Shown: one piece after another, positions 15,611 to 20,039 of the stretch
Layout of the letters: each line of letters begins with the position of its first letter
How positions within the stretch are numbered: the stretch's first letter is position 1
Source of the DNA: Spirochaetota bacterium
Lineage (GTDB): Bacteria > Spirochaetota > UBA12135 > COTS27 > JAFLEE01
Assembly: GCA_017302015.1 (NCBI GenBank)
Contig: JAFLEE010000001.1
Coordinates: forward strand, 1 to 64,000
Length of the DNA stretch: 64,000 nt
Direction of reading: 5' to 3'
Notes under the pieces: generated by a model
Database searches by the model: none
Told to the model about the DNA's origin: nothing
The model's input: only the letters and a program-made list of their open reading frames with translations
Translations under genes and position numbers: made by a program

Positions 15611-16486
15611 CTACCGCGTCGCGCCTCCTTCCAAGAGCGCCGCGCGGAACGCTTCGGCGAGGCGGGACACGGGCCCCTTGCGGGTCGCCAAGGCCAAATG
15701 CGCGGCGGGCAAGCCCCCGATCGGCCGGCAGGCGAGGCCCGCCGCGCCCCGCACCGAAAAATCGGGGACCACGGCGACCCCCACCCCGATTCGGGCGAGG
15801 TCGATCTGCGCGTCCACGCTCCCTAGGTCCATCACCGAGGTCGGGGCCAAACCCCGCTGGAAAAATGAGGCTTCCAAGGCCTCCCGCCCGCGCGTCCCCC
15901 GTTCCAGAAGGAGGAGATTCTGGGCGCAAAGGTCGGTCAACGCCATCGCACGCGGCGGCGCCCCGGACCGAGCGGATGCGCTCACCGCCACTTGGCGGAA
16001 AGCGCGCCAGACCTTGATCTCGAGGCCCCGGGCTTTGGCCGGGAGGGTGACCACCCCGAGGTCGACCCGGCCCTCCTGGATCAGGGCGCAGGTCTCCGAA
16101 GAGGTCTTGTTCCACACCCGCAAGCGGACCCCCGGATGCTTCTTGGCGAAGCGCGAAAGCGATGGGAGGAGGAGGTGGCGGAGCACGGCATCCCCCGCGG
16201 CGAGGTTGAGCTCCCCCTCCTCCAGGCCCCGGCGAGCCTTCATCCCGGCTTTGAGCTTCTCCACTTCGGCGAGGATCGCCTGCGCGTGGCCCAAAACCGC
16301 CCGTCCCGACGCCGTGGGAACGATGGCTCCCCCCCCTCGGTGGAAGAGGCGCTCCCCGAGTTCGCGTTCCAAGGAGCGGATCTGCATGCTCAGCGCGGGC
16401 TGCGAAACCAGGAGGCTCGCCGCGGCCCGGGTGAAGGAGCCCGCGCTGGCCACCGCGCGGACGCACCGGAGTTGGTCGACGGTCAT
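15611..16486 (-). CDS. LysR-family transcriptional regulator
   Basis: The 291-aa protein has the LysR N-terminal winged helix-turn-helix (VDQLRCVRAVASAGSFTRAA, then SQPALSMQIRSLERELGERLF) followed by a periplasmic-binding-protein-like effector domain from about residue 90. It is divergent from the short adenylosuccinate synthetase gene, and LysR regulators commonly control the divergent neighbour and themselves. An inverted repeat covers its own start codon. The effector is unknown; a purine-pathway metabolite is a reasonable guess from context only. Confidence 0.92.
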   Translation of the reverse strand: MTVDQLRCVRAVASAGSFTRAAASLLVSQPALSMQIRSLERELGERLFHRGGGAIVPTASGRAVLGHAQAILAEVEKLKAGMKARRGLEEGELNLAAGDAVLRHLLLPSLSRFAKKHPGVRLRVWNKTSSETCALIQEGRVDLGVVTLPAKARGLEIKVWRAFRQVAVSASARSGAPPRAMALTDLCAQNLLLLERGTRGREALEASFFQRGLAPTSVMDLGSVDAQIDLARIGVGVAVVPDFSVRGAAGLACRPIGGLPAAHLALATRKGPVSRLAEAFRAALLEGGATR

Positions 16487-16523
16487 AAGTTATCCTTATG
16501 TTTATTATAAATTGTATCAATTT
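16484..16523. promoter_or_regulatory. Two inverted repeats, probable LysR operators
   Basis: CATAAG-N5-CTTATG at 16484-16500 is a perfect dyad that includes the LysR start codon. A second perfect dyad, AAATTG-N3-CAATTT, lies at 16509-16523. Both are in the only AT-rich patch of a GC-rich region, between divergent genes. This is the expected place for LysR binding and autoregulation. Confidence 0.55.
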
Positions 16524-16524
16524 G

Positions 16525-16530
16525 TATTAT
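16525..16530 (+). promoter_or_regulatory. Candidate -10 of the adenylosuccinate synthetase gene
   Basis: TATTAT directly follows the second dyad. A poor -35 (TTATTA) lies 17 bp upstream inside the dyads, so regulator binding would block or activate RNA polymerase here. Confidence 0.4.
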
Positions 16531-16587: not shown

Positions 16588-17595
16588 ATGCCCGCCACCA
16601 TCGTCGTCGACGCCCTCTGGGGCGATTCGGGGAAGGGGAAGATCGCCTCCTTCCTCGCCCAGAAACACCGCGCGAGCTTGTGCGCCCGCGCCGGGACGGG
16701 AACCAATGCGGGCCATAGCCTCTATCTCGAAGGCGATCGCATCCTCAAGACCCATCAATTGCCGCTCGCGGGAATCCTCTCGGGGGCCCGGCTTCGGGTC
16801 GGCAGCGGGGTCGCGGTCGACCCCAGGGTCTTCTTCGCGGAACTTGAGGCGTTCAAGGAATTCGATGTCGCTTCCCGCGCCCGCGTCGATGGGCGCTGCC
16901 CGGTGATCCTCCCGGGATACGCCGAAGAGGAGCGCAGCGATCCCCACCTCTCGGGCACGGTCGGCTCCACCTGCAGCGGCACGGGCGTCGCCCAGGCGGC
17001 CTTCTGCCTGCGCAAGGCGACGCAGGCCAAGGAGGTGGACGCGCTCGCCCCCTTCGTCTGCGACGTGGCGCGGGAAATCAACGAGACCTGCGCGCGCGGG
17101 GAGACCGTCATCGTGGAAGGAAGCCAAGGCACTTTCCTCTCCCTCGCCTTAAGCCGCGATTACCCCTATTGCACCTCCGGCAATTGCACGGCCGTCGCCT
17201 GCGCCGACGATGTGGGGCTCAGCTGGCGCCATATCCGGGAGGTCGTCCTCGTGGTGAAGGCCGTGCCATCGCGCATCGGGGCGGGGCCCCTTCCCGGCGA
17301 ACTTTCGGTGGCGGAGCAGGATGCCCGGGGCATCGCCGAATACGGCGTGCTCACCGGCAGGCGGAGGCGCAAGGCCTCCTCCATCCCCATGGAACTCCTT
17401 AAAGAATCGGTCCTGCTAAACGGCGCCACGAAGATCGCCCTCACCTTCTGCGACCACCTCGACCCTTCGATGAAAGACGCCCGCGCCCCCACGGGGCCCG
17501 TTCGCGAACTCGTGCGGCGCATCGAGGCCGCCTGTGCCATCCCCGTCTTCCTCCTGGATTGCGGCAAGCCCTATGGATCCATCCTCCAGGTCTAG
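16588..17595 (+). CDS. purA: Short adenylosuccinate synthetase, archaeal/PurZ-like
   Basis: PurA joins IMP and aspartate using GTP, the first committed step to AMP. The 335-aa product is far shorter than usual bacterial PurA (about 430 aa) and matches the compact archaeal form, which is also the ancestor type of phage PurZ. Motifs: GDSGKGK at residues 12-18 (usual PurA: GDEGKGK), GTNAGHS with catalytic His43, GSTCSGTG, VEGSQGTFLSL, PYCTSGNCTA, VGLSW and EYGVLTGRRRRK. The catalytic Asp13 is kept, whereas phage PurZ replaces it. Glu14, however, is Ser. The guanine-recognition TKLD motif is TFCD here. AGGAG supports the ATG. It is divergent from a LysR gene. Function as true PurA is likely but unproven. 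Confidence 0.85.
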   Translation: MPATIVVDALWGDSGKGKIASFLAQKHRASLCARAGTGTNAGHSLYLEGDRILKTHQLPLAGILSGARLRVGSGVAVDPRVFFAELEAFKEFDVASRARVDGRCPVILPGYAEEERSDPHLSGTVGSTCSGTGVAQAAFCLRKATQAKEVDALAPFVCDVAREINETCARGETVIVEGSQGTFLSLALSRDYPYCTSGNCTAVACADDVGLSWRHIREVVLVVKAVPSRIGAGPLPGELSVAEQDARGIAEYGVLTGRRRRKASSIPMELLKESVLLNGATKIALTFCDHLDPSMKDARAPTGPVRELVRRIEAACAIPVFLLDCGKPYGSILQV

Positions 17596-17601
17596 GGCGC
17601 G

Positions 17602-19854
17602 CTAGATTCCGGGAAGCGTCGGCGCCACCGGGAGCGACGGCACCCCCGGCACGGTCGATGCCCCCGGGATCGCCGGCAGCGCCGAGGCGTTCGTCGAGGG
17701 CGGGTTCAGGTCGAAGTTCAGGCTGATCTGGAGGGATCCCTGGGGCGTCGAGGCCCCGTTGGGGAAGGAGAGGCTGTAGCGCGCCATGAGTTCCATGGGG
17801 CCGAGGATGGTGAGGTGGGCCTCGGCGCCCACCAGCGTCTGGGCGTCGATGAGGTTGCTCACCAGGCCCCCCGGCGTGACGTTGTGGCGGAGATAGAAGG
17901 CGTTGGCGTAGAAGCCCTTCAGGGCGCCCTTATAGATCGAGAGTTGCGCCTTCATCTGGTTCCTCTGGAAGGCGAGGGTCTGGGGATCATAGAAGGCCTC
18001 GAACGAGGCGGTGAAGGCGCCGGCCTTCCCGAAACTCACCCCGAGTTCCCCCCCCCAACCCAGGCTATTGGTGTTCCGATTGGCGAGGAGGTTCGAGATC
18101 ATGTCGGCCCGCTGCCAATCGTAATTGACGAACGGATTGAAGAGGCCGGCCTGGAACCCGTTGAGGTTGTAATAGCCCTCCGCCTTGTAGCGCAGGGGGC
18201 CCAGATCTCCCTTCAGCCCCGCCGCGAAACCGGGGCCGAGGGCCCAGAGATTGGTGGCGATGCGGACGTCGAGCATGGAGGCGCTCACCGTGGGTTGGAA
18301 GCGCACCGACCCCTTCCCGAGGGGCAGGCCCAGGTCGAGGCCGAAGCCGTCGACGCTATTGAGCGCGTTGGTGTAGATCGCGTACGGGTGCGCGTTGGTG
18401 AGGCTCGGCTTCAGCGGGGTGTCGAGGAGCAGCCAGTTCACCCCGACGTTCAGGCCGCCCAATGGCCCGAGTTGGCCCTTGCGCTCGGGCTTGGCGAACG
18501 AAACGAGGGGAAGCCATTCGAGCCGGACGCCATAGAGGAGTTTCTGGCTGAGATCGCCGCTGAAGAACGTCCCCCCGAGGCCCAACCAGGGGTCGCGGTA
18601 GCCGAGCACGAGGCCCTTCACCTGCTTCACCGGGAACTCGAGCATATTATTGTAGCCATCGAGCAGGTGGCCCCCGCCCCAGGTCATGCCGGGAATACCG
18701 CCGTAGCGCAGGGTGAAGCGCCAGATCGACATCTGGAAATAGACGAGCTTGTTCAGCACGTCCTGCGCGCTGTCGAAATCCCAATCGGAGGCGTTGTAGA
18801 AATTCGCGGGGAGATAGAATTGGTCGCGCACGCCGAAGATGACGGGCAGGTAGAGGCCGAGGCCGAAGGGGCCCCACGAGAGTTCCGGGACCCACGTGAG
18901 CGTCCCCCAGATGCCGCAATGGGGGACCTGGAGGGTCGCGAGTTGGAAGGGGTAGCCGTAATTCGCGGCGTTCGTGTCGCCCGGTTCCTGGAAGATGCCG
19001 AGTTGGAGGCTATGGCGGAACTGGAATTTCCAGGGCATGGGGGGGAAGAGCGGGTCGGCGGGGCGCTTCACCACCTGGGGCGGCCCGCGTTTGGGGCGGG
19101 CATTGGTGGCCTTGGTCTCCGCCTGTTTTTCCTTGGCGGCGGTCTTGGCCTCTTCTTCCCGGTTCGAAAGGGGCGGGCGCTCGTTGGTGGGGGAGAGCAG
19201 GAGATCGGGATGGACGGCGGCGGCGGGCGCCGGGATATTCCAATCCTGGTAGACCGAAAGCGCCGTCATGCCCGCGGTGGGGGGATCGGTGGAGCGGATG
19301 ACCGAACTGGAATGCCCCACCGGCACCACCACCGCTTCCCCCGTCTGGAAGGTGTTATTGAAGTTCACCAGGCCGGCGAGGGTGTGCACGCTGGTCTTGT
19401 CCGCCGCGGCATCCAATAAAAAATCCCCCCCGATGGTGGCGACCCGCCCGTCGCGCGTCTCCGCCACGAAGAAAGGGGCCTTCTGCGCGTCGATGAGGAT
19501 GCGGTAGCGCCCGTCGGTGATGCGCAGCCCGATGGCCAGGTTCGTCGCGGTGCGGCGCAAGACCTTGAGTTTGAAGACGCCGGGCTTCAATACCGAGACG
19601 CGGGCGCTGGCGCCCAGATCGATCTCCAGGTAGGTGTCGAGTCCCGTACGGATGCTGTCATCTTCCCGAAGGACCGTCTCGCGCACGATGGTGGCCCACT
19701 CCCCTTCCCCCGCCGGGCGGTACTGGGCCCGGCCCCGCACCGCGATGACCGAGGCCGCCGCTTCCCCGCTTCCTTGGGCCAAGAGGGCGGCTTCAGCGAG
19801 AATGAAAACCGCCGGGAGGATCCGAATAAGGAGGCGAAATGGAGGCGAGAACAT
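17602..19854 (-). CDS. FecR-domain protein with C-terminal outer-membrane barrel
   Basis: The roughly 750-aa product has a signal peptide (residues ~1-28, ending LLAQGSGE). A FecR-like beta domain follows (VIAVRGRAQYRP, DDSIRTGLDTYLEID, IATIGGDFLLDA-like segments, about residues 35-180). Next comes a Pro/Lys-rich linker (about 210-270). The remaining ~450 residues are rich in alternating aromatic/glycine beta strands, as in outer-membrane barrels, ending in a Pro/Ala/Leu-rich tail. FecR normally signals through an inner-membrane anti-sigma domain; here the domain is exported and fused to a barrel, so it probably binds a cell-surface ligand or polymer. I chose the ATG at 19854 so the signal peptide is N-terminal. 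It is convergent with purA, six bases apart. Confidence 0.7.
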   Translation of the reverse strand: MFSPPFRLLIRILPAVFILAEAALLAQGSGEAAASVIAVRGRAQYRPAGEGEWATIVRETVLREDDSIRTGLDTYLEIDLGASARVSVLKPGVFKLKVLRRTATNLAIGLRITDGRYRILIDAQKAPFFVAETRDGRVATIGGDFLLDAAADKTSVHTLAGLVNFNNTFQTGEAVVVPVGHSSSVIRSTDPPTAGMTALSVYQDWNIPAPAAAVHPDLLLSPTNERPPLSNREEEAKTAAKEKQAETKATNARPKRGPPQVVKRPADPLFPPMPWKFQFRHSLQLGIFQEPGDTNAANYGYPFQLATLQVPHCGIWGTLTWVPELSWGPFGLGLYLPVIFGVRDQFYLPANFYNASDWDFDSAQDVLNKLVYFQMSIWRFTLRYGGIPGMTWGGGHLLDGYNNMLEFPVKQVKGLVLGYRDPWLGLGGTFFSGDLSQKLLYGVRLEWLPLVSFAKPERKGQLGPLGGLNVGVNWLLLDTPLKPSLTNAHPYAIYTNALNSVDGFGLDLGLPLGKGSVRFQPTVSASMLDVRIATNLWALGPGFAAGLKGDLGPLRYKAEGYYNLNGFQAGLFNPFVNYDWQRADMISNLLANRNTNSLGWGGELGVSFGKAGAFTASFEAFYDPQTLAFQRNQMKAQLSIYKGALKGFYANAFYLRHNVTPGGLVSNLIDAQTLVGAEAHLTILGPMELMARYSLSFPNGASTPQGSLQISLNFDLNPPSTNASALPAIPGASTVPGVPSLPVAPTLPGI

Positions 19855-20039
19855 ACCGATGCAGTTGTTAACTTTTCTTGACCGACAAAGTGCAAAACAT
19901 CCCCACATATATACGGCATTCAGCCCCTTTAAATGATATTCGCCCTGGTATTAGAACCATTCCAACGAAATGGCTCGGTTCATTCATCCGTGGGCGAATT
20001 CGGCGGCTTGGGCCCCATTGGGCAGTTCCCCATAAACCA

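Follow-up and report, generated by a model that had tools for sequence, protein, structure and literature searches.

A compact adenylosuccinate synthetase paralogue with a paired phosphate-loop change and a linked LysR regulator in a Spirochaetota bacterium

The compact purA locus

The window, a stretch of 64,000 nucleotides from a Spirochaetota genome (contig JAFLEE010000001.1), carries at 16588..17595 on the plus strand a reading frame of 335 codons plus stop that encodes a compact adenylosuccinate synthetase (AdSS) paralogue, as judged from profile matching, its position in the tree and its modeled fold. AdSS is the enzyme that opens the final branch leading to AMP. The same frame is open from a possible start at 16498, and the MPATIVVDALWGDSGKGK start lines up with the starts in ~30 relatives. 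Composition of the gene is normal, and the intact frame preserves all catalytic residues. Homology of the product to PF00709 is beyond doubt (173 bits). The best specific model is NF003295 (archaeal PRK04293), with 303.1 bits below its cut-off of 368, and scores also stay below the cut-offs of TIGR00184 for full-length bacterial PurA of ~430 aa (212 bits versus 395.55) and of NF038379 for PurZ (106 bits versus 300). The predicted model (pLDDT 89.7) superimposes on the P. horikoshii PurA structure that contains GTP, IMP and hadacidin (PDB 5K7X) with a TM score of 0.95 and an rmsd of 1.6 A, and on PurZ and PurZ0 structures with TM scores of 0.82–0.88. An earlier note on this DNA had described a compact, archaeal-type enzyme of 335 instead of about 430 aa, with Asp13 kept and Glu14 replaced by Ser in motif 1 and with TFCD in place of TKLD in the guanine motif. 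Length, coordinates and frame agree with the open reading frame, the motif ALWGDSGKGK is read directly in the sequence, the alignment places TFCDH where E. coli has TKLD, and tree and modeled fold support the archaeal-type assignment. Beyond these features, the protein has Asp for Gly8, Phe for Lys331 and Asp for Ser414.

A LysR-family regulator of 291 aa (15611..16486, minus strand) is transcribed divergently from the compact purA across a gap of 101 bp. This gap contains an AT-rich, operator-like element (ATCAATTT..TTAT; 16506..16530, plus strand) common to the divergent promoters of relatives and detected with a matrix derived from seven of them. The match is the best of the 64-kb window (29.7 bits, against 20.6 for the runner-up outside the gap). 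Shuffling the whole gap 2000 times gave a score as high in 4 cases, and shuffling its AT-rich part alone did so in 49 of 2000. This constitutes moderate evidence that the divergent promoters have a shared operator. The other immediate neighbors are PTH, nifS, Rrf2 and sufBC genes and a 768-aa protein encoded 3' of the compact purA (17602..19908, minus strand), which has no Pfam or NCBIfam match. The window protein was unmatched in PADLOC. Searches of phage and plasmid collections found no close relative, the best match being one of 37% identity on rhizobial plasmids, and IMG/VR yielded a single match of the full-length type at 31% identity.

A paired change in the phosphate loop and the state of the active site

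Residues are numbered as in E. coli PurA without Met, and the clade alignment comprises 35 rows. Motif 1 of the window protein, DALWGDSGKGK (residues 8–18; 16609..16641, plus strand), forms the phosphate loop and combines Gly8 to Asp with Glu14 to Ser, while Asp13 is kept. In all 75 superfamily sequences compared, Glu14 occurs with Gly8, and Ser, Thr or Ala14 with Asp8 or Cys8; the patterns used to scan for relatives left position 8 uncovered. When the motif is masked in tree building, about eight separate changes of residue 14 are required. Independent pairs for residues 8 and 14 are all concordant: there are eight on the best tree, and four if the branches must be well supported. For these four the sign test reaches only p 0.125. 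Because Gly8 turns into Asp or Cys wherever Glu14 is lost, the loss looks compensated, and we infer that Asp8 may stand in structurally for Glu14.

Ser14 is found without exception among ~35 relatives of the window protein, all carrying [VI]D[AS][LF]WGDSGKGK (one with GD for VD). As WGDSGKGK was one of six patterns used in the scan, this invariance is partly ascertained, but searching 64 Latescibacterota genomes with the whole protein turned up no member beyond those already known. Ser14 appears again outside the clade, among full-length PurAs of candidate bacteria and DPANN archaea; the genomes inspected from DPANN and Woesebacteria encode such a protein as their sole PF00709 member. The residue 14 change is hence common in relatives, which the earlier note had named among the observations that would speak against its reading. 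Being recurrent, paired with residue 8 and present in sole-copy full-length PurAs, Ser14 is a tolerated change and not a mark of PurZ.

The full-length PurAs combining Ser14 with Asp8 or Cys8 are L069, L070, L074, L071–L073, L075, L076, L078 and L086, from candidate bacteria, DPANN and one IMG/VR contig. Longispora albida additionally encodes a very divergent full-length paralogue with GDAGKG and Asp8 (L127, G311:C2:710287-711504) alongside a normal and a compact copy.

Outside the phosphate loop, D13, K16, N38, G40, R143, Q224, T239, R303 and R305 are kept in 35 of 35 clade rows, T301 in 34 of 35, and D333 wherever the segment is present. With N38, Q224, T239, D13 and R303 among the residues kept, the acceptor pocket resembles that of an IMP-using enzyme. 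On the donor side the clade is altered (K331F, S414D/E and a variable P417, including P417K/V), with Asp333 retained, and the phosphate-donor preference may differ, as the earlier note had suggested. In the window protein the guanine-specificity motif TFCDH occupies residues 286–290 in the protein's own numbering (17443..17457, plus strand), where the Asp333 equivalent is kept and the Lys331 equivalent is Phe. Pyrococcus PurA, however, aligns with Met331 and Lys414 and its structure was solved with GTP, so that the donor-site changes alone are no argument against GTP.

Glu14 and His41 are held essential in E. coli PurA, where His41 is catalytic. His41 is retained in the window protein, in 13 of 13 rows of a subclade linked to LysR and in 5 of 5 rows of an Anaerolineales/Kouleothrix/Rubrobacter subclade. 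By contrast, all 17 rows of a TrmB-linked subclade (L048–L053, L055, L056, L058–L065 and L077) are devoid of it and have Ala in 16 cases and Thr in one. A literature search on Glu14 or His41 of PurA, or on a LysR-linked purA, found no paper in the collection searched.

Relatives, probable horizontal spread and linked regulators

The phylogeny comprised 55 sequences, in which archaeal compact PurA is represented by one sequence and DPANN are the sole other archaea. Compact enzymes split from full-length PurA at 100/100, with the window protein on the compact branch. The Ser14 clade (100/99) joins this single archaeal compact sequence, from Pyrococcus, and a ToyG-like protein at 95/92, and it includes one Glu14 member, L161. 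PurZ, PurZ0 and cellular D13S proteins form one separate clade (100/99). The grouping with Pyrococcus PurA is tentative, as the AU test does not reject (p 0.21) a topology in which Ser14 proteins and PurZ are joined and archaeal PurA stands apart. L161 (G390:C11:7498-8361) is a compact Glu14 relative of 360 aa on a long branch beside the Ser14 clade and the sole PF00709 match in one Anaerolineales genome.

Closest among the known enzymes is the archaeal compact PurA (P. horikoshii PH0438, PDB 2D7U and 5K7X), which resembles the window protein in length (~337 aa), fold, Asp333, its deletions relative to E. coli PurA and its IMP and Asp site. At 42% identity, the window enzyme differs from it by the paired Gly8 and Glu14 changes, K331F and S414D, and by being a bacterial, LysR-linked second copy that scores under the NF003295 cut-off. 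The ToyG-type PurA of toyocamycin/sangivamycin clusters (L117, on R. leguminosarum plasmids; 37% identity) is another compact paralogue from bacteria and falls on the window protein's side of the tree, but carries N38G, Q224N and T239V and lies in a pathway cluster, neither of which applies to the window gene. PurZ and PurZ0 of Z-genome phages share the compact superfamily fold and, in some PurZ, Phe331, yet have S13 and K303, form their own clade and are 25–30% identical. Housekeeping bacterial PurA (TIGR00184; L001 in this genome) has the catalytic Asp13 in common and probably the same reaction, whereas it measures ~430 aa, has Gly8/Glu14 and TKLD and is only 28–29% identical (29% for E. coli).

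Scanning one genome per species retrieved ~35 relatives with 47–65% identity over nearly the full length (slightly higher in a few fragments). Their hosts are Latescibacterota, one Fibrobacteres MAG, Chloroflexi and Actinobacteria, several hosts titled Gemmatimonadetes falling in the same phylum as Latescibacterota. The compact enzyme is present in 1 of 296 genomes of the phylum of the window, 1 of 168 genomes of the phylum of its nearest relative L035, and 13 of 64 Latescibacterota genomes. Between the window and L035, the compact enzymes are 65% identical, the full-length PurAs of the same two hosts 50%; together with the patchy spread, this suggests horizontal transfer. The bacterial compact Ser14 PurA clade is an undescribed family, new as a described variant. 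A few members look broken: L080 and L066 are split across frames and L045 is without the guanine-motif segment, either as pseudogenes or through assembly errors.

The regulator is the sole gene that travels with the compact enzyme, and nearly every member has its own. A homologous divergent LysR gene accompanies compact Ser14 PurA at 14 loci besides the window, in keeping with the dedicated LysR regulator proposed in the earlier note, and across eight loci the identities of LysR and PurA correlate with r 0.95. A TrmB-family gene lies directly 5' in 16 of 17 loci of the subclade devoid of His41, and a WYL regulator in L085; at L039 and L042 the contigs are too short to judge the regulator. Regulators apart, no conserved operon partner was found in the window and 37 related loci, where only lineage-local neighbors recur. 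In bacteria, compact archaeal-type PurA would thus behave as a mobile gene that is paired with dedicated regulators of unrelated families (LysR, TrmB, WYL), a pattern pointing to some condition in which cells need a different AdSS.

Probable natural replacement of PurA and proposed function

The genome assembly (5.4 Mb, 165 contigs, 93% complete) contains exactly one other PurA member, a full-length purA on the same contig 60 kb away (C1:77134-78384, 554 bits), which settles the question of a second copy raised in the earlier note; activity of the compact enzyme is thus not forced in this genome. Most host genomes likewise combine a full-length PurA with the compact one. In one Anaerolineales family, however, the compact enzyme is the only PF00709 member in four of four genomes (G315, G318, G328, G331), all of which have purH and purB (purB over the cut-off in three and split across two frames in one). 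The probability of this fourfold absence arising by chance is ~0.008 if the genomes are independent; as PF00709 matches are altogether lacking in 17 of the 57 further genomes from this order, the absence of full-length purA is only suggestive in this family. The genomes with replacement are mostly MAGs.

Stronger evidence comes from a second Chloroflexi lineage, in which G310 and G312 have the compact enzyme only, along with purB and purH, and their sister G309 has both enzymes. In G309 and G399 the full-length purA is flanked by an isomerase gene on one side and a ParA gene on the other. In G310 and G312 both flanks of this site lie on one contig, full-length purA is missing and an oxidoreductase gene occupies the interval. 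The compact enzymes of G310 and G312 belong to the Ala41 subgroup, the window protein to the His41 subgroup. Since G310 and G312 lack full-length purA at an intact site and keep an Ala41 compact enzyme, there is fair evidence that the clade can make adenylosuccinate even without His41.

The computations establish the homology and fold of the protein, its clade and residue pattern, the linkage to regulators and the pattern of replacement; from these we infer the reaction, the compensation and the induction by LysR. We propose that the compact purA was acquired horizontally along with its LysR gene and that the purA product, predicted to act as a dimer, would catalyze the ordinary reaction of IMP, aspartate and GTP to adenylosuccinate. 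Asp13 would act as base and Mg ligand, Arg303 would select ribo-IMP in an intact IMP pocket, the Asp of the TFCD motif (333) would read guanine, and Asp8 would offset the loss of Glu14 within the same loop. LysR would turn the gene on under some condition, yielding a conditional isozyme beside housekeeping PurA, and in some Chloroflexi the compact enzyme may have taken over from PurA altogether. We consider it probable that the enzyme is such a horizontally spread, conditionally expressed, ordinary IMP-aspartate ligase able to replace PurA: as the sole copy in a few bacteria, the altered active site very probably does the ordinary reaction. The differing donor site (K331F, S414D/E, variable P417) and the score under the NF003295 cut-off speak against it. 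The more specific reading, that the family works with a rearranged site (Glu14 to Ser with Asp8, His41 gone in one subfamily) and yet replaced PurA in several Chloroflexi, is put forward tentatively, with the odds slightly against it.

An AdSS insensitive to natural inhibitors such as hadacidin or hydantocidin phosphate, induced via LysR or TrmB on exposure, would catalyze the same reaction and is thus a sub-case of the ordinary ligase. Such inhibitors exist (PMC6136348), and a second copy with its own regulator and a patchy horizontal spread would suit this role; but the aspartate-site residues, to which hadacidin would be expected to bind, are conserved and no biosynthetic cluster adjoins the compact purA, and we regard the idea as unlikely. 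That the copy is inhibitor-resistant or feedback-insensitive is a guess. Somewhat less likely still is a synthetase shifted to another 6-oxopurine nucleotide (a 7-deazapurine or (d)GMP, as in ToyG and PurZ) in an unrecognised modified-nucleotide or antibiotic pathway. The ToyG-like protein from a toyocamycin-type plasmid cluster among the nearest compact outsiders, the second copy in most hosts, the dedicated regulators in place of purine regulation, and the changes in motif 1, donor site and, in one subclade, His41 would fit such a shift. Against it, no conserved pathway gene other than regulators adjoins the gene in any subclade, N38, Q224 and T239 (changed in the ToyG-like protein) as well as D13 and R303 (changed in PurZ) are all kept, and six genomes have the compact enzyme as their only PurA. 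A ToyG-like function was rejected, as the base-pocket residues are unlike the changed ones in L117 and the pathway genes are absent: no preQ0/toyocamycin cluster genes lie adjacent to compact purA in the window or in relatives.

A degenerate, inactive or regulatory paralogue without AdSS activity in the lineage of the window might be suspected from the full-length PurA in the genome and from the broken-looking members elsewhere; the intact frame of normal composition with all catalytic residues and the sole-copy status in other genomes make this very improbable. Least credible of all is an enzyme for 2-aminoadenylate precursors, as the earlier note had envisaged by placing the protein in a zone between PurA and PurZ. 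The shared compact fold and the AU test would allow it. Yet the clade keeps D13 and R303 where PurZ has S13 and K303, the protein scores far under the PurZ cut-off and lies outside the PurZ clade, and datZ, mazZ and Z-polymerase genes are absent among the immediate neighbors in the window and relatives; the intermediate placement is not supported, and a PurZ-like function was rejected.

If the reading with a rearranged active site is correct, two residues held essential in E. coli PurA would be dispensable in nature. The superfamily, with its ~8 exchanges of Glu14 together with residue 8, offers a natural test of which AdSS active-site residues are needed, and the subfamily without His41 appears to run the reaction alone.

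Two side findings concern other compact superfamily members. The ToyG-like L117 locus (R. leguminosarum plasmid pRL23b2, 48299–59620; also hits H61–H68) is a toyocamycin/sangivamycin-like gene set on symbiont plasmids, comprising folE, compact PurA, purB, queE, an IMPDH-like gene, nitrile hydratase, queC, HAD, phosphoribosyltransferase and queD. Cellular PurZ-like proteins were found at L118 (4440–6730, Rhizobium sp. CB3171 plasmid NZ_CP121654), L119, L120 and L126 (Actinopolymorpha pittospori chromosome); these have an N-terminal extension, GSEGKGN (D13S) and K303, but Gly in place of R143. In L118 and L119 the extension gives a weak AAA_18 (kinase-like) match and a DUF7002 gene follows. L118 further has a YfbR-like gene (DatZ family) just 5' and SIR2 and AbiE genes close by, and loci of this type are possibly cell-encoded Z-nucleotide or defense loci.
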